This document shows, piece after piece, positions 1 through 33,827 of a stretch of 35,162 bases of DNA. The stretch is from Candidatus Doudnabacteria bacterium RIFCSPHIGHO2_02_FULL_42_25 (GTDB lineage Bacteria > Patescibacteriota > Doudnabacteria > UBA920 > O2-02-FULL-48-8): contig MFEQ01000001.1 in assembly GCA_001777665.1 (NCBI GenBank), positions 1 to 35,162 of the forward strand. Reading direction: 5' to 3'. Below the pieces are notes generated by a model. The model did not search any database and was not told the origin of the DNA. It saw only the letters and a list, made by a program, of their open reading frames with translations. Made by a program: the position numbers and the translations under genes. The stretch's first letter is position 1. Each line of letters starts with the position of its first letter.

Positions 1-507
1 AACTTTTATCCGTTGAGCTTCCACCCTTCCACGAAGGATGGTCGGATCACTAACTTCTACTTTCGTATCTGCGCGGCGTGCCAGCCTTGCAGTTAAGCGA
101 GCTTTTGCGTTTGCGCGTCACACTCCGTTTCCATCGGAGCTAAGCTCACCTTAATAAACGCCTCCGTTACCATTTAGGAGGCAACCGCCCCAGTTAAACT
201 ACCCATGAGCCACTGTCCCTTTGTTGGTTAAATAAAGGTTAGAAACAAAAATCTTTCAGGGTGGTATTTCACTTGTCGCCTCCATACCAGCTAGCGCCAG
301 TACTTCGAAGGCTCCCACCTATGCTAAACAAAAAAATTCTTGCATCAATGACACACTATAGTAAAGCTTCATAGGGTCTTTCCGTCTTGTTGCGGGTAGA
401 CGGCATCTTTACCGTCAATGTAAATTCATCGGGTTAATCCTTAAGACAGTCCCCTACTCGTTATGCCATTCGTGCGGGTCGTAACTTACACGACAAGGAA
501 TTTCGCT

Positions 508-1238
508 CGGGTCTTTCTTAATCTTTTATGATTAAGTGCTGTTAAGCCTGCATATCGCTATGCAGTTGGGACTATATCTTGTCGTCTTTTGGACGACCTT
601 GGCGTATAGTCTCTGAGGATTCTAATTAGTTTATCTCGCGATTTTTTGTGATTCATCTTTTGTGTAAGTCTGGCTATTTTAAGCATTCCGCCAATTGCGA
701 GGTGCTTATTCTGTAGCATTAACTCAACACACTTTGCGAACAACAAAAAATCATTTCGCTTCGAGGTTATCAGTTTATTCCGTTTAAAAAAGGGAATAAT
801 TACTCGTTTCAAATCTTCGCGATTAGTAACTTTATAGCTGTATAAATCTTCTTTATGATTATCATGTCTTCGATTTCGGTAAATTTTACCAATTCCGAAG
901 AAAATCTTAATCACTTCTAAAGACCTTAGACTACGCTGACCTTGCACTACTGCAAAGTTTTGCGAAATTTGATAACCAGTCTTGTAACCTCTCCGGATTC
1001 TAGTGGCTTCCTGACGATCTGGCTGTTTCGTGAAATTAATCGAGAAACAACCTTCTCCATCAACAAACCCTAAAATCCAACCAATTAGCCTTTCCTGCTG
1101 ATTGTCTGCACGAGACGCATTTTTACTTTGTTTCATAAGACAAGGAATAAATATCCATTGTCATTATAACCTAGTAGCGCTCGATACACCAGATATCCCA
1201 GCATTTGGCCAAGTTTTACTATGGCAGCTTTTAGTTCA
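508..1238 (-). other. Group I intron in 23S rRNA at the position-1923 site
   Basis: The exon flanks, read on the minus strand, are ...CGTCCTATGGT and AGCGAAATTCC. They join to give the conserved CCTAAGGTAGCGAAATTCC-like segment, so the insertion lies after E. coli 23S position 1923. This is the insertion site of the Chlamydomonas I-CeuI intron. The 5' exon ends in U and the 731-nt intron ends in G, as group I splicing requires. Intron core blocks are recognisable: AAATGCTGGGA near the 5' side (1198-1208) and AGATATAGTCC (571-581), the usual P7-type block. The second block lies inside the last codons of the endonuclease gene, so coding and catalytic RNA overlap. Confidence 0.9.
558..1136 (-). 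CDS. LAGLIDADG homing endonuclease of the 23S intron
   Basis: This 192-residue protein has one LAGLIDADG-type motif, LGFVDGEGCF (about residues 22-31). The class with a single motif acts as a homodimer that cuts the intronless allele of its own insertion site. The middle and C-terminal part (VIIPFFKRNKL, KRNDFLLFAKCVEL) resembles the endonuclease in the 16S intron of this window, so the two are probably paralogues. The gene fills most of the 731-nt intron. Its last codons, reading QDIVPTA, overlap the intron P7 block. The frame is intact and the motif acidic residue is present, so it is probably active or recently active. Confidence 0.92.
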   Translation of the reverse strand: MKQSKNASRADNQQERLIGWILGFVDGEGCFSINFTKQPDRQEATRIRRGYKTGYQISQNFAVVQGQRSLRSLEVIKIFFGIGKIYRNRRHDNHKEDLYSYKVTNREDLKRVIIPFFKRNKLITSKRNDFLLFAKCVELMLQNKHLAIGGMLKIARLTQKMNHKKSRDKLIRILRDYTPRSSKRRQDIVPTA

Positions 1239-1754
1239 CCATAGGACGATTATAGTTATCGCCGGCGTTCATTAGGGCTTGGCTCTTGAGCTTGCGCAAA
1301 AGAGTTTAACCTTCTAACACTGGCCAGGCATCAGCCCGTATACTTCCCCTTGCGGGTTTGCACGGACCTAAGTTTTTGATAAACAGTCGGGAGGGGTCAG
1401 TCGCTGCGACCCAGCTCCACTCATCAAAAACTACTATGTCTTAGAGTGTATTGTCTTAAACTGGAACATTACTCTCAAATTCATCATAGAATCTGAAGAG
1501 TGGGGCTGGGCAAGGCATATTGCTAACTTACGCCTGCTTTTTTGCCGAGTTCCTTAAGGATTATTGTCCCGGTCACCTTAGTATTCTAGCACTCATCCAC
1601 CTGTGTCGGTTTGCGGTACGATCACTTATAACTATTTAGCAAAGTCACCTCTTGCGAGACAACTTCGCTAATCCCTAGCAACGTTTCTTGACACCTTGGT
1701 TCGTCCAAATTGCCCGTTACCGAGCTTCTCTCATGTTTTCACTGTTACAGTAAT

Positions 1755-1836
1755 CCAAGTTCGGAGATCGGAAGTCGGATAATCAGAAGTCGAATTTCTC
1801 CGATCTCTGACATCTGATCTCTGACCTCCGAACTGG
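1755..1836. repeat. Palindromic repeat copy A inside 23S rRNA
   Basis: An 82-bp imperfect palindrome with outer ends CCAAGTTCGGAG and CTCCGAACTGG. It is built of 8-9 bp units such as GATCGGAA, GTCGGATA and ATCAGAAG that are repeated directly within each arm and inverted in the other arm. It lies in the 23S between acagtaatcc and ggacacatag, where E. coli has only a short variable helix. It would form a long hairpin expansion in the rRNA. Copies B and D are about 90 percent identical by eye. Confidence 0.9.
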
Positions 1837-2170
1837 ACACATAGACGCTTGGGGTTTACCTCAAGCACCCAGCTAAGAACACAAGAACACATATAGTCAA
1901 AATATGCTCGGATTACCATGATGTGTAATTGCATCAGTATTATAAGCGGTTACGGAATATCAACCGTATTTGCCATCATCCGCACCCGTTCGGGTACGAA
2001 CTTAGGATCGACTAACCCTGGGATGATTATCATTGCCCAGGAAACCTTGGATTTTCGGTGTGCATGATTCTCACATGCATACATATTACTTATTCCAACA
2101 TTCTCACTTGTATGCAGTCCACAGAGAGTTCCCTCTCTGCTTCAGCCCACATACAACGCTCCTCTACCAC

Positions 2171-2253
2171 CCAAGTTCAGAGATCGGAAGTCGGATAATC
2201 AGAAGTCGGATTTCTCTGACCTCTGACATCTGATTTCTGACCTCCGAACTTGG
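2171..2253. repeat. Palindromic repeat copy B inside 23S rRNA
   Basis: An 83-bp element with perfect outer arms CCAAGTT and AACTTGG and the same internal units as copy A. It lies about 90 nt downstream (in the rRNA) of the L11-binding domain. In E. coli this place holds a short helix, near positions 1165-1180. Confidence 0.9.
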
Positions 2254-2336
2254 ATCCGCGTCTTCGGTACAAAACTTAGCCCCTATACATTGTCGGCGCA
2301 AGAACGCTTGACCAGTGAGCTGTTACGCTTTCTTTA

Positions 2337-2374
<38 letters not shown>

Positions 2375-2761
2375 AGTGTTCCCACATCCTTTACACTATA
2401 GTTTTGATTTAGGGACCTTAAACGGCGGTGTGGATTCTTCTCCATTAGACAAACGAAGCTTAGACCTCATTGTCTGACTCCATGCCCTTAAGTGTTTGAA
2501 TTCGGAGTTTGGTTCGGTCTACGAGATTGCTCCCGCAGAGCCGATTCAGTGCTCTACCTCAAACACGTGCGGCACAGGCTAGCCCTAAAGCTATTTCGAG
2601 GAGAACCAGCTATTACCCAGTTCGATTGGAATTTCTCCCCTACTCACAGTTCATCGCGGAATTTTGCAACATTCTAGCGTTCGGACCTCCCGTTACTTTT
2701 ACATAACGTTCATCCTGACCATGAGTAGATCACCGGGTTTCGGGTTTAGCGCACGCTACCT

Positions 2762-2813
2762 AAAATCGGAAATCAGAGGTCGGAAAATCTCCGATTATCT
2801 GATATCTGATTTT
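2762..2813. repeat. Shorter palindromic repeat copy C inside 23S rRNA
   Basis: A member of about 52 bp, built of ATCGGAAATCAGAGGTCGG and its inverted counterpart CCGATTATCTGATATCTGAT. It sits in domain II where E. coli has a variable helix. It lacks the CCAAGTT outer ends of copies A and B. Confidence 0.82.
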
Positions 2814-3003
2814 TACGCCCTATTAAGGCTCGCTTTCACTATACCTTCGCATTTGATAATGCTTAAGTAAGCAACGTACGGCTAACTCGTTGGATCATTC
2901 TTCAATAGGCACGCGGTCACTCACAACACCCTGCGGCGTTGGAGCTCCCACTCGATTGTAAGTGTATGGTTTCAGGTACTATTTCATCGCCCTCACCGGG
3001 CTG

Positions 3004-3040
<37 letters not shown>

Positions 3041-3727
3041 ATCAATTTGAGTATTTAGTCTTATGTCGTAGTCGACACAGATTCCAACTAGATTTCACGT
3101 GTCTAGTTGTACTTAACAAACCATTCGGAAGATATAAGAGGTTTTTCGCGCTACACGGCTATCACGTTCTTTGGCTGGTCTTTCCAGACCATTCGGCTAA
3201 ACAGCTCCAACTGAATCTTCAAGAACTTTACAGAGTTCTAATGAATGATTGTTACAACACTAATCCTTGCAACGCCTGTAAGCTTTAATCCGAGTTTGAA
3301 ATAATCTTGCGATTACTCTTCGACTCGAAGACACAAAGTTAGTTTAGACTCCTCCCCGTTCGCTCGCCACTACTAGGAGAATGAGACAATATTCGATTTG
3401 AACTTCAATATCAAAAGTTCAAATTAAATAATGCCCTTATTTTCTTTTCCACATGCTACTGAGATGTTTCACTTCGCATGGTTCCCGATCTCGTATCCAC
3501 CACGGATACTGATCATCTGTTCTTCAAACAGATAGGTTTCCCCATTCGGACACCTCCGGATCAAAGGTTGCTTACCACCTCACCGAAGCTTTCGCAGGTT
3601 GCTGCGTCCTTCTTAGGCTCAAACTGTCAAGGCATCCACCATACACCCTTATTTGTTTAATTCTCCGCCAGATGGCGGATATTTGACTAGTAATTATTGA
3701 TTACTAGGATTTTACTAAATACTAATT

Positions 3728-13076: not shown

Positions 13077-14279
13077 CTATGCAGCACTAGCTAAATTATA
13101 TATCGGCATTAAAATTCCTGCAACTATGGTTGCCACAGCGACCCCTAACAACAACATGACAATTGGTTCCAGTAAAGTCGTCAAAACCTTTAGGTTCGAA
13201 TCCACTTCTTTCTCATAAAAGCCCGCGAGCTTCTCCAAAATTTCCTGAAGTTGACCTGTACTCTCCCCGATCTGCGTCATTTGCGCCACAATCACGGGAA
13301 ATTCCGGGCTGGCTGTCAGAGCCGAGGCCACACTTTTACCGTTTCGAACTTGGGTTCCGGCTTTCATGACTATATCCCTATAAACCACGTTCCCGATAAT
13401 ATCAGCCACTGAATCTAACGCCTGGACAATTGGAATGCCACCTGCAATTAAGGTCGCAAGGTTTCGGGCAAACCTAGCCATATATATTTTCTCAAACAAA
13501 TTGCCAAAAATAGGTAAATGAATTTTAAACCGATCGATGACATAACGACCGCCTGCCGTTCGAGCATAGAAAATCAGCAAGCCAATTGAGACTACTAAAA
13601 AAGCAAGAACTAAGACCCAATACTTAGAGAAAAATCCCGTAACTACCACTAAAATTTTGGTTGTAATCGGTAATTCAACATTGGATTCCGTCAGCACTGA
13701 AATCATAGGTGGGAGGACATAGACCATCATCAGGAACCCCACGACTATCAAAGCGGCAACCACAAACGCCGGATAAGTCATGGCTGAAATAAATTTCGAA
13801 CGCAAATCATAATCTTTCTCCATCTGATTCGCCAAGTACGACAACGATTCGTCCATTTTTCCTGATAACTCTCCAGCCCGCAACAAATTCACAAACATGT
13901 CGGAAAAAATCTGGGGATGACGAGCAATAGCCGAAGACAGACTTTCGCCGCCCTCGACATGAGAACCGATATCTTTTATTGTCGATTTCAATTTTGCTGA
14001 ACTGACCTGACTTTCCAGAATCCGCAAAGCCTGCACAATTGAAATTTTAGCATCGATCAAAGTTGCCAGCTGCCTCGTAAATAAGACCAACTCTTTGACA
14101 GAGACAGAATCGAAAAGCCGCAACCGCTCCAGCATATCGAGTTTGGTAAACGGGGCGATTTTGATCACGATCAAGCCATGAGCTCGAACAATTTCCGTAG
14201 CTTTCGCCTCATCCACGGCTTCCACTGTTCCTGTCCGAAACCCTCCTTCATTATCTCTGGCATTATATAAAAATTCCAT
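13077..14279 (-). CDS. pilC: Type IV pilus inner-membrane platform protein PilC
   Basis: PilC (GspF family) is the membrane platform that couples the PilB and PilT motors to pilin insertion and removal. The 400-residue length is normal. Two GspF domains are visible, each with the FTRQLATLIDAKISIVQAL or FARNLATLIAGGIPIVQAL signature (about residues 66 and 268). Three hydrophobic segments are seen (about 170-195, 220-240 and 370-397). Gene order pilB, receiver, pilT, pilC, pilin is kept without large gaps. Confidence 0.96.
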   Translation of the reverse strand: MEFLYNARDNEGGFRTGTVEAVDEAKATEIVRAHGLIVIKIAPFTKLDMLERLRLFDSVSVKELVLFTRQLATLIDAKISIVQALRILESQVSSAKLKSTIKDIGSHVEGGESLSSAIARHPQIFSDMFVNLLRAGELSGKMDESLSYLANQMEKDYDLRSKFISAMTYPAFVVAALIVVGFLMMVYVLPPMISVLTESNVELPITTKILVVVTGFFSKYWVLVLAFLVVSIGLLIFYARTAGGRYVIDRFKIHLPIFGNLFEKIYMARFARNLATLIAGGIPIVQALDSVADIIGNVVYRDIVMKAGTQVRNGKSVASALTASPEFPVIVAQMTQIGESTGQLQEILEKLAGFYEKEVDSNLKVLTTLLEPIVMLLLGVAVATIVAGILMPIYNLASAA

Positions 14280-14296
14280 AGAATCTCGTTAATATC

Positions 14297-15376
14297 TTAA
14301 TGCTTTAATAAGCCCTGGAATAGATCATGATCTGACACAAACATAATTACGTCTTCCAACCGACAAGTGTTCGTCCGAACCAGTTTGGCTAAGCTGTAGT
14401 CTAATGAAATCATACCATGAGATTGAGAGGTATGGATAATATTCGGCAACTCATAAGTTTTGTTTTCGCGGATAACATTGGCCACAGCGTTGCTGTTTAA
14501 CATAATTTCCACGGCCGGAACGCGGCCCCCACCAATTTTTGGCAACAGCCTTTGTGAGATTACAGCCACCAGAATGTTTGAAAGTTGCGCCCGGATTTGA
14601 TTCTGCTGGTGCGAAGGAAAAACGTCAATGATGCGATCAATGGTTTGAGCTGCATCGTTCGTGTGGACGGTGGCAAACACCAAGTGTCCTGTTTCAGCCA
14701 CAGTAATAGTCGTGGCAATAGATTCCAAGTCACGCATTTCACCAACCAAAATGACGTTGGCGTCTTCGCGAAGAACACTCTTTAGAGCACGGCCAAACGC
14801 TTGGGTATCAGAACCGACCTCGCGCTGGTTGATCAAAGACTTGTCAGGAATATAAACGTATTCAATCGGATCTTCTATGGTCACGATATTCTCTGCTCTC
14901 GTATGATTCACTAAATCAATCAACGAGGCTTGGCTGGTCGATTTCCCGTGTCCAGTAGGACCAACAAACAAAATCAAGCCTTGTTTATGATTAATCAATT
15001 CTTTCAGTTGTGGTGGCAAATTCAATTCTTCGATAGTTTTGACTTTGTTCGAAATCAAACGAAGAGCCGCGGACATAAACCCTTTTTGGAAATAAGCGTT
15101 AACCCGGAAACGAATATTATCTTTGAAAGAAAATGAAAAATCCATTTCGCGTTCAGTCATCAGCTGTTGATTGCGTTCGGGAGTTTCCAGCAACACCGCG
15201 ACCATAGCTGCAATCGCGTTGCCTGAAAGTACTTCGTACTCTTTGAGTTCCACTAACTCGCTGTCGATTCGAAGTGTCGGTGGTTTACCTGCGATCAAGT
15301 GCAAATCAGAGGCATTGCGCTGCAAAACCATGGTCAATAATTTGTTTACTTCGAGTTCTGTTGATTTATACGGCAT
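14297..15376 (-). CDS. pilT: Type IV pilus retraction ATPase PilT
   Basis: PilT powers pilus depolymerisation and twitching. From ATG 15376 it is 359 residues, the family length. An upstream in-frame start at 15406 is less likely because it overlaps the receiver gene further and adds a hydrophobic tail. Motifs: Walker A GPTGHGKST (139-147), Asp box TIEDPIEYVY, Walker B ILVGEMRD, His box AETGHLVFATVHTNDAAQTIDRIIDVFP. The Walker A residue that is usually serine (GSGKST) is histidine here, while the lysine and following Ser-Thr are kept. The gene overlaps the receiver gene stop by 11 bases. Confidence 0.95.
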   Translation of the reverse strand: MPYKSTELEVNKLLTMVLQRNASDLHLIAGKPPTLRIDSELVELKEYEVLSGNAIAAMVAVLLETPERNQQLMTEREMDFSFSFKDNIRFRVNAYFQKGFMSAALRLISNKVKTIEELNLPPQLKELINHKQGLILFVGPTGHGKSTSQASLIDLVNHTRAENIVTIEDPIEYVYIPDKSLINQREVGSDTQAFGRALKSVLREDANVILVGEMRDLESIATTITVAETGHLVFATVHTNDAAQTIDRIIDVFPSHQQNQIRAQLSNILVAVISQRLLPKIGGGRVPAVEIMLNSNAVANVIRENKTYELPNIIHTSQSHGMISLDYSLAKLVRTNTCRLEDVIMFVSDHDLFQGLLKH

Positions 15377-15737
15377 GCATTTGATGAATTTTATGAATAC
15401 GATCAAGTAAGAAATCTGGACTGCAATTCCTGGTATCCAACCAGTCTGAAGCTCCCAAACCTAATGCTTCAGAATTATCATGATAAGTGGTCAAGAAAAT
15501 AAAAGGCACGGCTTGGTGAATTGGATGCTGTCTCACAAAGCGCAGGAACGAAATTCCAGATAACAAAGGTAATTCGTAATCACTGACGACGATCGAAGGC
15601 GGGTTTGCACGAAATCTTCTGATGGCAGTAAGTCCATCATGAGCGCTATCGACATTGAAACGCGTACCCAGATGCTTGGCATAAATTCCCGATAATTTGT
15701 AATCCGGGTGGACAAATAATAATTTTTTTTCGATCAT
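15366..15737 (-). CDS. Degenerate response-regulator receiver domain between pilB and pilT
   Basis: This 123-residue stand-alone receiver-like protein keeps the phosphorylation site aspartate (SDYELPLLSG, Asp53) and the Thr (LTT, 83-84). The N-terminal acidic pair is reduced to HPD, and the conserved lysine near the C-terminus is replaced (WLDTRNCSP instead of a KP). Loss of the lysine usually means altered or phosphorylation-independent signalling. It lies between the extension and retraction motors and is only one base from pilB, so it probably works on the pilus motor. A canonical receiver lies at 25904-26275. Confidence 0.85.
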   Translation of the reverse strand: MIEKKLLFVHPDYKLSGIYAKHLGTRFNVDSAHDGLTAIRRFRANPPSIVVSDYELPLLSGISFLRFVRQHPIHQAVPFIFLTTYHDNSEALGLGASDWLDTRNCSPDFLLDRIHKIHQMHAV

Positions 15738-15738
15738 A

Positions 15739-17511
15739 TTATTCTTTAGTAACTCTGATGACCTCTTCGACAGTCGTGACTCCTGCTAAGGCTTTCAGGA
15801 TCCCGTCTTGCTGCATTGAGATAAATTTTTCATCTTTAACTGCGACTTCTTGAATTTTAATGGCTGGCGTGCGGTCATTAATCAACTCTTGAATTTTTTT
15901 GCTAACAACCAACATTTCGTGGATACCAATTCGGCCTTTATATCCTGAATTACCACAAACTGGACAGCCTCGGCCCATATAAACTTTCGTATTTTTGATA
16001 TCATATCCTTTATATTCTTCCGCATCGACATTGGCTAAATGTTCCGTAATAAATTTCTGGACCGCTTCGCTCGGCTTGGTTTCAGTTCGACATTTATCAC
16101 AAATTCTGCGGACCAACCGCTGGGCACCGACGAGGTTGAGGGATGCGGTAAGCAAGAACGGTTCAATTCCCATGTCCACCAATCGCGGAATAGCGCCAAC
16201 TGCGCTATTCGTGTGCAGGGTCGAAAACACCAAGTGTCCGGTCAAAGCAGAATTAACTGCCAGTTCGGCTGTTTCGCGGTCACGGATTTCACCAACCATG
16301 ATAATATTTGGATCTTGGCGTAAAATTGAACGCAACCCAGAAGCAAACGTCAGCCCAATTTCTGGTCGAACCTGGGCTTGATTCACTCCATCAATGAAGT
16401 ACTCGACCGGGTCCTCTAGAGTCACGATATTCACCCCGGGCTTATTCAGAATGCTTAAAATTGCATAGAGAGTGGTTGATTTACCACTACCGGTCGGCCC
16501 AGTAATCAAAAACATTCCGTGGGGCTTGAGAATCGTGCTTTTCACCGCCTCGAGCCTTCGTCCCATGACGCCGAGTTCTTCCAGGGTCGGAGCGCCCATC
16601 GATTTATCTAAAATTCTCAAAACAACTTTCTCCCCGACCACGGTCGGGAATGTCGAAACACGAAAATCGATAGGTTTACTTTCTAAATTTATATGAAATC
16701 GTCCATCTTGAGGAAGCCTTTGTTCGTCGATTTTCAGGTTCGACAAAATTTTAATCCGGGAAACAATCGCACTGTGGACCGATTTCGGAAGAATTAAAGA
16801 ACTATGCAGCACTCCATCAACCCGGTAACGAACTCTTAAATCTTCTTCAGAGGGTTCAACATGAATATCAGAGGCTCTAGCTTCAATCGCGTGGCGGATA
16901 ACAACATCTACAATTTTTGAAATCGGAGCTTCGTCGGATAACTTCTGCTCACCATTATCTGATTTCGTTGGTCGTTTATATTCGGCTGCAACTTTTTCTC
17001 GGGCTTCTTTCTCGACTACTTCTTTTAAGGCCTGAGAAACTTCTGTGCTGACTGAAGCGACGACTGATGAAGCGGCATGGAAACTGATCAGAGAAGTAAT
17101 ATAGACTTCGAGTCGGAAATTATGCTTTTGGGCTAAAAATTCTAAGGCCTGAATGGCCGCCAGGTCAGTCGGGTCAGTAACAGCAACTTTTAAAATATCA
17201 TCTTCCTTTTCAAACGGCACAACTTTATATGTGCTAATCGTATCTTTCGAAACTATCTCCAGCAGGTCTTTGGCAATGCTTTTTCCTCGAAGATCGATAT
17301 ACGGCAGGTTAAAAAAAAGCCCACGGGCGCGAGTCAGATCTTCTTCAGTTAGGTATTTCTCGCTTACTAAAAAGTCAAAGAGGTTGCGGTTGGAGCTGCT
17401 GGCTTCTGCCCGAGCCTTGATCAGATTTTCCCTGGAGATGAATTTTTTTTCCGACAAGAACTCTTCAAAACTCAAGGTTTTCTCTAGGGTGTTAACTGCT
17501 GCTTCTGCCAT
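15739..17511 (-). CDS. pilB: Type IV pilus extension ATPase PilB
   Basis: PilB drives pilin polymerisation. The 590-residue protein has an N-terminal GspE/MshEN-type domain (about 1-140), a linker, and the secretion ATPase core: SDIHVEPSEEDLRVRYRVDG, Walker A GPTGSGKST (338-346), LEDPVEY, Walker B NIIMVGEIRD, LTGHLVFSTLHTN. It has the four-cysteine zinc site typical of PilB rather than PilT (Cys471, 474, 516, 519). The start is two bases from the preceding gene stop, consistent with one operon. Confidence 0.97.
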   Translation of the reverse strand: MAEAAVNTLEKTLSFEEFLSEKKFISRENLIKARAEASSSNRNLFDFLVSEKYLTEEDLTRARGLFFNLPYIDLRGKSIAKDLLEIVSKDTISTYKVVPFEKEDDILKVAVTDPTDLAAIQALEFLAQKHNFRLEVYITSLISFHAASSVVASVSTEVSQALKEVVEKEAREKVAAEYKRPTKSDNGEQKLSDEAPISKIVDVVIRHAIEARASDIHVEPSEEDLRVRYRVDGVLHSSLILPKSVHSAIVSRIKILSNLKIDEQRLPQDGRFHINLESKPIDFRVSTFPTVVGEKVVLRILDKSMGAPTLEELGVMGRRLEAVKSTILKPHGMFLITGPTGSGKSTTLYAILSILNKPGVNIVTLEDPVEYFIDGVNQAQVRPEIGLTFASGLRSILRQDPNIIMVGEIRDRETAELAVNSALTGHLVFSTLHTNSAVGAIPRLVDMGIEPFLLTASLNLVGAQRLVRRICDKCRTETKPSEAVQKFITEHLANVDAEEYKGYDIKNTKVYMGRGCPVCGNSGYKGRIGIHEMLVVSKKIQELINDRTPAIKIQEVAVKDEKFISMQQDGILKALAGVTTVEEVIRVTKE

Positions 17512-17512
17512 T

Positions 17513-17821
17513 TTAATAGCGATTAAAAGGATCTGGTCGGCCGAGTTGGTTGGCGATATCTAGTGGAGTGTAGCCGCGAAGTTGAGTGTATTCAGGGTTT
17601 TGCAAAACCCCACTGTCAAAAGTCTTACTAGCTGGAAACACCGGAGGAGCTTGAAAAGAACCGGTAGCATCGTTGTCACGGCCACTGTTTGTAACGGGAG
17701 TTATCAAATCAGCTTCAGGAGATGAACCACCACTAAGATTACTCCAGACTAAGATACCAACACTCAAGAGTATGGTTACGACGATGAGAATAATATAAAT
17801 TTTCCTTTTTTTCGGATCCAT
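17513..17821 (-). CDS. Small membrane-anchored protein of the pilus operon
   Basis: The 102-residue protein has an N-terminal basic stretch (MDPKKRKIY), one membrane helix (IILIVVTILLSVGILVW, about 9-26) and a low-complexity extracellular tail ending GRPDPFNRY. A terminal RDPF-like sequence and the position after pilO recall the lipoprotein PilP of Gram-negative systems. However, there is no lipobox and no beta domain, so it is at most a reduced functional counterpart. It is adjacent on both sides (pilB two bases, pilO none). Confidence 0.75.
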   Translation of the reverse strand: MDPKKRKIYIILIVVTILLSVGILVWSNLSGGSSPEADLITPVTNSGRDNDATGSFQAPPVFPASKTFDSGVLQNPEYTQLRGYTPLDIANQLGRPDPFNRY

Positions 17822-18376
17822 TTATTTCTGGTAGTAAGTGTTTAATTTAATTTGATAAATCAAAATCGGAGTGGAGTTACTCTGGTCGCCCAAATTATTA
17901 GCTGCGAGTGTGATATTCGTGACATCCATTAACCGCAGATGGAGCTGAATTTTAGTAATAAAATCTTTAAGTTGAGGATACGTGCCGGAAGCACTAAAGC
18001 TGATTCCGACCGGTTGGACAGCATTAACTGCACTAATTTTAGTCGCACTATCCACAATTTGAATTTCACTTAAAACGATGGCACTTTGTCCGGCTAAACT
18101 TTCGATATTCGCCAAAAGATTCGGGACGTCCGGCTCTTTCGCTGGTAAAAACTGGTCAATGTTCGAGGGATTGGAGGCTTGTTGATTATATTTCTCTATA
18201 AAATCCTTAGTGGAATCTAGGGTATCTTGTAACTGTTGATTTTCGGTTTGAGCCAAATTCAAGGCCATTTGTTGAGACGAATAATTCGGCCAAACTGTAT
18301 TATAAAGATAATAGCCACTTGCTAAACAAGCTAAGGTCAGGATAATCGCGTATAAACTTTTGGATTGAATAGACAT
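17822..18376 (-). CDS. pilO: PilO-like type IV pilus assembly protein
   Basis: The 184-residue bitopic protein has an N-terminal helix (SLYAIILTLACLASGYYLY), a coiled-coil stretch (MALNLAQTENQQLQDTLDSTKDFIEKYNQQ), and a ferredoxin-like domain (ISFSASGTYPQLKDFITKIQLHLRLMDVTNITL) as in PilO. PilO pairs with PilN to form the inner-membrane alignment complex. It follows pilN directly and precedes the small anchored protein. Confidence 0.88.
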   Translation of the reverse strand: MSIQSKSLYAIILTLACLASGYYLYNTVWPNYSSQQMALNLAQTENQQLQDTLDSTKDFIEKYNQQASNPSNIDQFLPAKEPDVPNLLANIESLAGQSAIVLSEIQIVDSATKISAVNAVQPVGISFSASGTYPQLKDFITKIQLHLRLMDVTNITLAANNLGDQSNSTPILIYQIKLNTYYQK

Positions 18377-18949
18377 TTATTTAGTGTATATTTTTGGAAT
18401 CACATTCATATCAATGGAAAAAGAATAAACCTTTCCCGATCCAGCTGCGGCCTTAGCTGATCCATCGCTGACTGACAACAACTTTACGTTCTGAAAATTT
18501 TCAGAAGTCGATAAACCTAAAATCAATTTGCCTAAATCTGTATAAGTTGGAACGTTGCCTTCGAGATGAATTTTGTTATTGTCCTTATTAAAATCGGCTG
18601 CGAAATATCTGGATTTAATAAAAGTATATTTTTCTAATTCTTCAAGTAATGGGGTGGTCAAGGTGTGCTTTTCGAGGAGCATGGAAGCATTGGCCAACTT
18701 CGCTTGCAGGCTTTTTGCAGCATCCAGCTCTTTCGAAACCTTGTTGATGCTTATTTGCAGCTCATTATTCTCTTCCAATACTTCCGCCGTTTGTTTTTCA
18801 GTGGTTTTTGTCAACAAATACAGGAGGACATTACCAGCGACCAGTGCAATGAAAATTATCACAACCAAAGTCACGAACATCGAAGTTCGCTGTGTCGAAG
18901 CGACAGTGGTATCTTTTATCTGGCTTTGTAATAAATTTATATCTGTCAT
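18377..18949 (-). CDS. pilN: PilN-like type IV pilus assembly protein
   Basis: Starting at ATG 18949 the protein is 190 residues and begins MTDINLLQSQIKD. This matches the short cytoplasmic INLLP-type peptide by which PilN binds PilM. A membrane helix (FVTLVVIIFIALVAGNVLLYLL) and coiled coil follow, then a periplasmic-type domain (IHLEGNVPTYTDLGKLILGLSTSENFQNVKL). An upstream start at 18985 would overlap pilM and displace the INLL peptide, so it was not used. Five bases separate it from pilM. Confidence 0.9.
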   Translation of the reverse strand: MTDINLLQSQIKDTTVASTQRTSMFVTLVVIIFIALVAGNVLLYLLTKTTEKQTAEVLEENNELQISINKVSKELDAAKSLQAKLANASMLLEKHTLTTPLLEELEKYTFIKSRYFAADFNKDNNKIHLEGNVPTYTDLGKLILGLSTSENFQNVKLLSVSDGSAKAAAGSGKVYSFSIDMNVIPKIYTK

Positions 18950-18953
18950 TTTT

Positions 18954-19997
18954 TTATGAGTGGCGCATAGCCAGACCCATTGCAACCGCTAAATTAAGCC
19001 CCAAAGGTTCAATCACAGCTTTAAGTTTGTCAGGGGCGACGACGTGAGACCATGGATTGGCTGAAACCAGGGGTTTGCCTAATGTACTTAAATATTCTTT
19101 CAAATTCGGAAGTCTCGAACCTCCCCCACTGATGATGACCTTATCAATTGTTCGGCCCCGACTTTCAAACAAGTTAATTAATTGTCCCGCTTCGTTCCGG
19201 ATAATATCTAGGATCGGTCGCATGACTTGAGGCAGTTGAGTGTTTCCAGAGAGCCCGAAATCTTTTTTGAACTGTTCGGCGCGGTTATAGTTGACTGATA
19301 AGCTCTTGGCTAAAGTCAGAGTAATCGAATCGCCACCAATGTTCAAATTTTTCGACAACCGCAGATACCCGTTTTCGACTAAATTAACTGAAGTACTTTT
19401 CGCTCCGATATCTATTAAAATACAATTCACCGAATCTTCGCCCACCAACGACCTTATCAGAGCCAGCGCTTCGATCTCAATGGCCGAAGCTTCTAATCCG
19501 CATAATTTAAAAAGCTGAATGTAATTGTTAATAACGACCGAGGGGACGGCTGTGAGTAAGACTTTAATTTTTTCTGGGAGGTTTGCACCAAGGCCAATAT
19601 CCTTTTTAGTTTTTTTTTCATCAATTACGCTCCAGGATAGAGCAACTTCTGACAGAGGCAAAGGAACGTATTTTTTCGCTTCAAATTCTACAGCTTTTTT
19701 CAATTCGTCATCGGGAATTTTCGGGAGTTCAATCACAGAAGTGAACACCGAGTTATTGGGCAGTGATGCCACAACTTTATTCGTCGTTACTCCAGCTCTG
19801 CGCATCAGTTCTGTTAAAACTTCCGCAACTGGTTTAATGACTGCGGAACTCTCCTTGTTCGCGATCTGGTAAGAGACATTGACTATCCCATAAGTTTCCA
19901 GCACAAATCGATCATTATCAGGTCGCAATTGGACGATTTTGATATTGGAAGAACCAATATCCAATCCTAGCTGGCTTTTAGTTTTACTGAATAGCAT
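18954..19997 (-). CDS. pilM: Actin-like pilus assembly ATPase PilM
   Basis: The 347-residue protein of the FtsA/MreB fold is the first gene of the operon. Visible nucleotide-binding blocks are GLDIGSSNIKIVQL (about 11-24), LIDIGAKSTSVNLV (about 194-207) and VIISGGGSRLPNLKEYLS (about 289-306). The segment LPKIPDDELKKAVEFEAKKYVPLP is the usual PilM signature. PilM links PilN to the cytoplasmic motor. A consensus promoter lies about 70 bp upstream. Confidence 0.96.
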   Translation of the reverse strand: MLFSKTKSQLGLDIGSSNIKIVQLRPDNDRFVLETYGIVNVSYQIANKESSAVIKPVAEVLTELMRRAGVTTNKVVASLPNNSVFTSVIELPKIPDDELKKAVEFEAKKYVPLPLSEVALSWSVIDEKKTKKDIGLGANLPEKIKVLLTAVPSVVINNYIQLFKLCGLEASAIEIEALALIRSLVGEDSVNCILIDIGAKSTSVNLVENGYLRLSKNLNIGGDSITLTLAKSLSVNYNRAEQFKKDFGLSGNTQLPQVMRPILDIIRNEAGQLINLFESRGRTIDKVIISGGGSRLPNLKEYLSTLGKPLVSANPWSHVVAPDKLKAVIEPLGLNLAVAMGLAMRHS

Positions 19998-25903: not shown

Positions 25904-26275
25904 CTAATCGTGTAGGACTTTTTTGACTTTTTCTAGAACGATTTTTGTATCGACATTGGATTTGACCAGATAGTCATCCACTTGGCTAGCGAATGCTTGG
26001 ATTTTCGAATCTGGCTGTTCGACTGAACTTAGCATAATTACCCGGGCTTTCTTGTCTGGCTCTTCTTGATTTCGCAGTTGCTTCAACATCTCTAATCCAT
26101 CTAATTTGGGCATCATAATATCGAGAATGATCAAATCCGGATGATGTCCGCGGACTGCATCCAATCCTTCCAGGCCGTCCTTGGCTGTAACCACATTGTA
26201 ACCAGCTTTGGTTAACACGTGTCGAAGAATATCTGTAAACATGGTGTCATCCTCGACAACTAGTATAGTTTTCAT
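25904..26275 (-). CDS. Response regulator, single receiver domain
   Basis: The 123-residue CheY-like protein has a complete active site: Asp9 and Asp10 (VVEDD), phospho-acceptor Asp52 (LDIMMPKLDG), Ser83/84 (MLSS) and Lys105 (LVKS). There is no output domain, so it acts by protein contact. No histidine kinase lies in the window. The start codon overlaps the stop of the upstream GIY-YIG gene (ATGA), which suggests the element at 26276-26547 landed exactly at this start. Confidence 0.93.
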   Translation of the reverse strand: MKTILVVEDDTMFTDILRHVLTKAGYNVVTAKDGLEGLDAVRGHHPDLIILDIMMPKLDGLEMLKQLRNQEEPDKKARVIMLSSVEQPDSKIQAFASQVDDYLVKSNVDTKIVLEKVKKVLHD

Positions 26276-33010: not shown

Positions 33011-33827
33011 ATTGCGATAACTGATAGTTTCGCATTCCCACGTAGTGTGCGGCGTTACCGCGCTACGCGAGTCCGAAGGTTCATTTGAGATTTTAGTAAT
33101 CGAATTCGATCTAGACCAAATTTAGAATGATGCTTTCCCATTTCTACAAGCTTAGCTATTTTGCAAAACAACTCAAAGCTTTTCTTCTTTGAATAACTCT
33201 GCAATTGATGCTTGCGAAAAAACGGGATAATTACATCTAGGATTGCTCTATGTGTGTTTACTGTATAACGGTAACATTGACTATGATTTTCTCGACTTTC
33301 TGGTTGAAAGTATACTGCTCCGCAACCTAAAGAGTTACGAACTTTATCGAGCATAGCCTTATCTTGTTCCTGAACTTTTATAAAAAAGTTCAAAGTAACA
33401 CGTCCGCCACCGCCCTTATTTAAGGGTGACTTTATTAGAACATAGAAACATCCTTCTCCATCTGTTAGACCGACGATATAATCATCAGAAACCATCGGTT
33501 TTGTCCTTCGGCTTGATTTTAAACCAAGCTTACTATGACGCAGCTGACTTCTCAAAACTTTTAAATTTTCCATAAGTTTATGAGATCTCCCTGGGTAACC
33601 ATTAATACTATTCCAAACATCATGATCGAGATTTTTTGTGATACTTCCCTATTACACACCGCACTAAAAATAGGTCGTATCTCTCTTTTTATGATCACGC
33701 TGCCCTTTGCTACTAGGATCCTTCAGTCTATCCCTCGCGGAAGTAGACCTACCCGTTCGCTACACTCGAAAATCGAGCGAGTGGACTTAAACCACTTAGC
33801 TTTAATAGCCGCCAGGCGCCTTTAATT
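33011..33827 (-). other. Intron in 16S rRNA between positions 1398 and 1399
   Basis: The exon flanks GTACACA and CCGCCCGTC join to the universal GTACACACCGCCCGTC, so the 817-nt insert is exact. It carries a LAGLIDADG gene near its 3' side. About 250 nt precede the gene, and a hairpin (33013-33034) sits against the 3' junction. The base before the 5' junction is A and the last intron base is U, unlike group I rules (U before, G at the end). The intron class is thus open: an unusual group I or another type. Confidence 0.85.
33055..33573 (-). CDS. LAGLIDADG homing endonuclease of the 16S intron
   Basis: This 172-residue protein has one motif, IVGLTDGEGCF (about 33-43), so it should act as a homodimer. 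The C-terminal region (VIIPFFRKHQL, KKKSFELFCKIAKL) is similar to that of the 23S intron endonuclease. The segment SPLNKGGGGR (about 49-58) is encoded by a small palindromic CCCTTA-aa-TAAGGG sequence and looks like an in-frame repeat insertion within the first beta strands. The frame is otherwise intact. Confidence 0.92.
   Translation of the reverse strand: MENLKVLRSQLRHSKLGLKSSRRTKPMVSDDYIVGLTDGEGCFYVLIKSPLNKGGGGRVTLNFFIKVQEQDKAMLDKVRNSLGCGAVYFQPESRENHSQCYRYTVNTHRAILDVIIPFFRKHQLQSYSKKKSFELFCKIAKLVEMGKHHSKFGLDRIRLLKSQMNLRTRVAR

Follow-up and report, generated by a model that had tools for sequence, protein, structure and literature searches.

Between the genes for its extension and retraction motors, the type IV pilus locus of a member of Candidatus Doudnabacteria (genome of 849 kb, 8 contigs, 98% completeness) encodes a small receiver that lacks part of its active site, and this raises the question of what such a protein does at that position. 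Pili serve in the attachment of Patescibacteria to other microbes. A sequence-only reading of the locus had proposed that a degenerate receiver could set the balance between PilB and PilT without a kinase. The window analyzed here is the whole 35,162-nucleotide stretch containing the locus. Its ends lie inside a 23S rRNA (left) and a 16S rRNA (right), probably reflecting an assembly break at an rRNA operon. The partial 23S rRNA (1-3656) contains insertions, its 3656 bases covering 2464 model positions, and an open reading frame inside it (558-1136) encodes a LAGLIDADG endonuclease. Next to the 16S rRNA end lies a second LAGLIDADG frame (33055-33575), in which positions 33503-33575 match group II intron D1-D4-1. 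The features of the pilus locus are the following:

17513..19997, minus strand: pilM, pilN, pilO and a 102-aa open reading frame, upstream of pilB (Pfam PilM_2, PilN, PilO)
15739..17511, minus strand: pilB, extension ATPase with an MshEN domain (Pfam T2SSE, 438.8 bits; MshEN, 50.9 bits)
15366..15737, minus strand: psr, single-domain pseudo-receiver of 123 aa (Pfam match, active-site alignment, AlphaFold2, Foldseek)
14297..15406, minus strand: pilT, retraction ATPase (Pfam T2SSE, 149 bits)
13077..14279, minus strand: pilC, platform protein, in an operon shared with psr (Pfam T2SSF, 199.6 bits)

The genes follow each other on the minus strand in the order pilB, psr, pilT and pilC. A single nucleotide separates the pilB stop from the start of psr, and the 3' end of psr overlaps the start of pilT by about 11 nt, the true pilT start likely being an ATG at about 15376, from which the PilT proteins of relatives align. 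The pilM, pilN and pilO genes and the 102-aa frame make up the remainder of this pilT-bearing locus, which also contains pilin-like genes. The 102-aa frame (17513-17821), located between pilO and pilB, has no Pfam match and ends in GRPDPFNRY. The receiver frame called in the sequence-only reading is real: its product matches the Pfam Response_reg profile (PF00072) with 39 bits (E 9.7e-10), above the curated cut-off of 30.2 bits, as well as many CheY-like PDB chains.

Alignment of Psr with CheY and with the other receivers of the genome was used to assign the active-site residues. The D12/D13 pair of CheY corresponds to His10-Pro11, so that both metal-binding acidic residues are gone, and Asp12 of Psr aligns one residue past the pair. 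The position of the conserved lysine is occupied by Thr102 and that of the switch tyrosine (CheY Y106) by Trp99, and about 3 residues are missing from the beta4-alpha4 loop. The phospho-acceptor (Asp53) and the conserved threonine (Thr83) are kept. The loss of the lysine had hence been read correctly, whereas the loss of acidic residues had been put at one instead of two. Psr is a pseudo-receiver in the sense of PMC12632262, a recognized receiver without key phosphotransfer residues, and it probably works without aspartate phosphorylation in vivo.

In this genome, eight receivers exceed the Pfam cut-off, and there are five HATPase_c proteins. The active site is intact or nearly intact in six of the other receivers, indicating that receiver degeneracy is not genome-wide and that the genome is not devoid of kinases. 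The window itself also encodes, at 25904-26275, a complete receiver (E-D, D, S, K; 93 bits).

The predicted structure of Psr is a five-strand alternating receiver fold of the (beta-alpha)5 type, modeled by AlphaFold2 with a pLDDT of 92.9 and a pTM of 0.86. Foldseek searches with this model returned CheY and RR468 as best matches, with TM values of about 0.85-0.9, and the CheY double mutant D13K/Y106W (1u8t) was also among the best matches.

To what extent these features are shared by relatives can be seen in the family of the window genome (f1; 14 genomes). Ten of its genomes carry this pilT, and the same ten carry a psr ortholog, in every case between pilB and pilT. Scores within the family are bimodal, with orthologs at 162-186 bits and other receivers at 68 bits or less, and a search of genome contigs with the family alignment returned only three loci, all of them from Doudnabacteria. 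The lysine and the second acidic residue are absent in all ten orthologs, and the first acidic position is Asp in a single ortholog and His in the other nine. The threonine is replaced by Ala or Gly in three, and at the switch position nine orthologs have Trp and the tenth has Phe. The phospho-acceptor position presents Asp in four, Glu in five and Ala in one, and its retention, which the sequence-only reading had noted, therefore applies to the window protein and not to the family at large. Place and changed residues are otherwise conserved, and Psr is a pseudo-receiver, as the sequence-only reading had it.

The four f1 genomes without pilT also lack psr. They have lost the first pilus system and retain a second pilB/pilM system with no pilT, so that Psr belongs to the pilT-bearing pilus. 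In genome G000 a second pilB/pilM system, likewise without a pilT match, maps to contig C6 at about 206-213 kb, and its relatives are found in genomes devoid of the first system. Saccharibacteria have also been described as having two pilus systems, only one of which includes pilT (PMC12206443).

Across the order, sampled with 49 genomes of which 42 carry pilT, all 41 evaluable pilB-pilT pairs enclose an open reading frame of 79-155 aa in the same slot. The active site of its product is graded, from complete in two genomes to the loss of all active-site residues in most of family f2. The two complete receivers belong to the sister family f3 (G015 and G019), another member of which (G027) presents an altered acidic pair. 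In f4 and f5 the second acidic residue is Pro, the lysine is kept and the phospho-acceptor is mostly Glu; f1 lacks the lysine and the second acidic residue, and f2 nearly all active-site residues. Only 4 of 17 f2 slot proteins match the Pfam receiver profile even at E 0.01, and an AlphaFold2 model of an f2 protein still shows a receiver fold (pLDDT 88.1), whose closest counterparts among solved structures include HP1043 and similar regulators that are orphan or independent of phosphorylation, FrzS being a further match. Degenerate slot proteins display new signatures, including a conserved Trp/His at the switch position. In f2, a conserved N-terminal M(A/S)YxxKQK-like stretch, which may be a docking peptide and is modeled with low confidence, precedes the receiver fold. 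One slot frame (L089, genome G031) is 79 aa long and starts 22 nt after pilB, its first half seemingly missing.

The region upstream of pilT was also read in genomes from about 75 families outside the order. A receiver occupies the slot in 20 genomes of 14 Patescibacteria families (for two of these 20 genomes, the stretch that was read did not show pilB), and its active site is complete in all 20; in most of the other families examined, pilB abuts pilT directly. Receiver fusions to PilT were considered for long frames in f22 and f61, in which the extensions read proved to be long P/T/E/D-rich stretches with no evident domain, and for a 568-aa f21 frame, which begins in out-of-frame sequence upstream of PilT; both were rejected. 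The f22 and f61 PilT proteins (L173, L187) carry their P-, T-, E- and D-rich extension at the N-terminus. Complete receivers in the slot, which the sequence-only reading regarded as evidence against its proposal, are thus absent within f1 and present in two f3 genomes and in 14 other families. Their distribution indicates that the degenerate state is derived and that the ancestral slot protein was probably phosphorylatable.

Since a tree of the receivers left a single origin undecided, the history of the slot was examined on a PilB tree. This tree has a branch that separates 42 slot-bearing and seven slot-less rows from 53 further rows, all slot-less. Slot presence requires 5 changes on it, against 32.6 in shuffles (0/500). 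This clustering fits an old receiver that later lost phosphorylation in Doudnabacteria, and a single origin of the slot is likely rather than proven, given the weak support (65) of the deepest PilB branch. Doudnabacteria PilBs form one clade (support 88), within which f3, with its complete receivers, groups with the highly degenerate f2 (support 99). Phosphorylation was thus lost separately in at least f1, f2 and f4/f5, provided that f3 did not regain a complete receiver, and we conclude that it was probably lost several times. In the receiver tree the slot proteins of each family form a clade; too short to decide, it rejects neither a single clade for all Doudnabacteria slots (p 0.14) nor one for all slots (p 0.07). 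Not all slot proteins come together in this tree, so that some lineages may have replaced theirs.

The Doudnabacteria slot proteins diverge quickly. Relative to PilB, slot proteins diverge at 0.84 in f15, where the receiver is complete, and at 1.27 across non-Doudnabacteria families, versus 2.8 in f3, 3.5 in f4, 3.6 in f1 and 7.0 in f2, that is, about three to seven times faster than PilB; a complete receiver of the same f1 genomes diverges at 0.87. PilT values from the latter comparison were left aside, one PilT sequence having apparently been translated in the wrong frame (lowest identity 0.33). Between close f2 genomes, dN/dS is 0.14-0.29 for the slot gene versus 0.009-0.048 for pilB, and it reaches up to 0.37 for the slot in other pairs, in which dS is near saturation. 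The slot gene is hence under relaxed but clearly purifying selection (0.14-0.37 where measurable). Together with the conserved place and residue changes, this makes a phosphorylation-independent role in the motor operon likely, and the sequence-only reading is thus supported in part.

A position between the motor genes and an absence of phosphotransfer chemistry, combined with intact fold and selection, are best read as those of a binding partner of the pilus machine. According to this reading, a CheY-like single-domain receiver would have settled between pilB and pilT in one Patescibacteria pilus-operon lineage, and in Doudnabacteria it would have lost its chemistry, probably several times, while keeping the fold. 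The resulting pseudo-receiver, made in step with the motors and translated beside both, would act by binding, most likely to PilB, and would so change pilus extension as against retraction. Instead of being switched by a kinase, it would be active at all times or regulated through a partner or through its own abundance. Of this, the analysis shows the fold (as a prediction), the lost residues, the conservation of the slot and purifying selection; phosphorylation independence in vivo and the pilus motor as target are what we infer. The persistence of Asp53 and Thr83 in the window protein counts against it, and overall we give a phosphorylation-independent motor partner of this kind an even chance of being correct. 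A bolder version, in which a kinase-free subunit stays on the motor ATPases, has evolved several times independently and sets extension against retraction, as a pilus clutch made from a CheY-like switch, is more tentative.

The original proposal, that Psr binds both motors or mainly PilT and in this way sets their balance, is plausible, if rather unlikely. The place of psr between the two genes, its overlap with the pilT start and its absence from genomes with only a pilT-less system all agree with it. However, pilB1, pilM1, pilT and psr are lost together, as a whole locus, and gene loss therefore does not tell PilT from PilB as the partner; furthermore, EmvR, the known single-domain precedent, binds PilB and not PilT (PMC11973254). 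Signaling proteins are an unlikely target instead of the motors. Psr could act as a kinase decoy or team up with complete receivers, for instance that encoded at 25904-26275, in line with roles proposed for other pseudo-receivers (PMC12632262) and with the complete receivers and kinase-like proteins of this genome, but it is strictly linked to pilB-pilT, and genomes with only the second pilus system have no copy. It is highly improbable that Psr is still a phosphorylated response regulator, with Asp53 and Thr83 taking the phosphate, Asp12, directly after the lost pair, binding the metal, and one of the genome's five HATPase_c proteins in control, as the lysine and the second acidic residue are each lost in 10/10 orthologs, the phospho-acceptor is Glu or Ala in 6/10 and the threonine is Ala or Gly in three. 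A decaying relic, kept after the loss of phosphorylation only by its place inside the operon, would account for the fast divergence, the 79-aa remnant in G031 and the f2 members mostly below Pfam detection, but is made very doubtful by a frame open in 41/41 loci over a deep order, by its dN/dS values, by a confident receiver fold even in f2 and by the conserved Trp/His and other new signatures.

The motor-partner reading would add to Patescibacteria a candidate pilus-motor regulator so far undescribed in the open-licence literature searched. No description of the arrangement was returned by searches of that literature on receivers encoded between the two motor genes, on the pili of Doudnabacteria and on pseudo-receivers associated with pili, a negative result that does not prove its novelty. 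The working of bacterial pseudo-receivers has been described as largely unknown (PMC12632262). Here, the receivers of a single slot, next to their presumed targets, range by degrees from complete to fully degenerate, which makes it possible to study the transition experimentally on small proteins within one molecular context.

Several known systems resemble parts of this arrangement. CheY D13K/Y106W is a constitutively active mutant (PMC11528121) that shares with f1 a changed second acidic residue and a Trp in place of Tyr106, suggesting by analogy that f1 proteins may be locked in an active-like state; it is a laboratory mutant with Lys where f1 has Pro, Ser or Thr, and constitutive activity is accordingly only a suggestion. 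PilG and PilH of the Pseudomonas Pil-Chp system control PilB polarity and pilus dynamics (PMC10519157). Like Psr they are single-domain receivers with a link to pilus motors, but they are phosphorylated via ChpA in a chemosensory system. PilH remains functional and is active-like when its Asp is replaced by Glu (PMC10519157), which agrees with how often Glu occupies the slot phospho-acceptor position.

The pseudo-receiver FrzS of Myxococcus xanthus needs no phosphorylation for its part in type IV pilus motility, and NMR found it to bind neither Mg nor BeF3 (PMC1974792). Its receiver domain, like Psr, combines the receiver fold with an altered active site (Ser at the CheY D13 position, Ala at the phosphosite), but FrzS is larger, has other domains, keeps the lysine and switch tyrosine and binds SgmX. 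The FrzS gene is not known to lie between pilB and pilT. EmvR of Xanthomonas oryzae, an orphan regulator, binds PilB, as found by co-IP, two-hybrid and pull-down assays, and lowers its ATPase activity (PMC11973254). It matches Psr as a single-domain receiver linked to the extension motor, and differs in having a complete, phosphorylatable site that is required for its effect: changes of Asp15, Asp59 or Thr87 abolish the effect on PilB (PMC11973254), which limits EmvR as a precedent for a degenerate receiver. By analogy with EmvR and FrzS, PilB would be the first guess for the target of Psr, and PilT the second.
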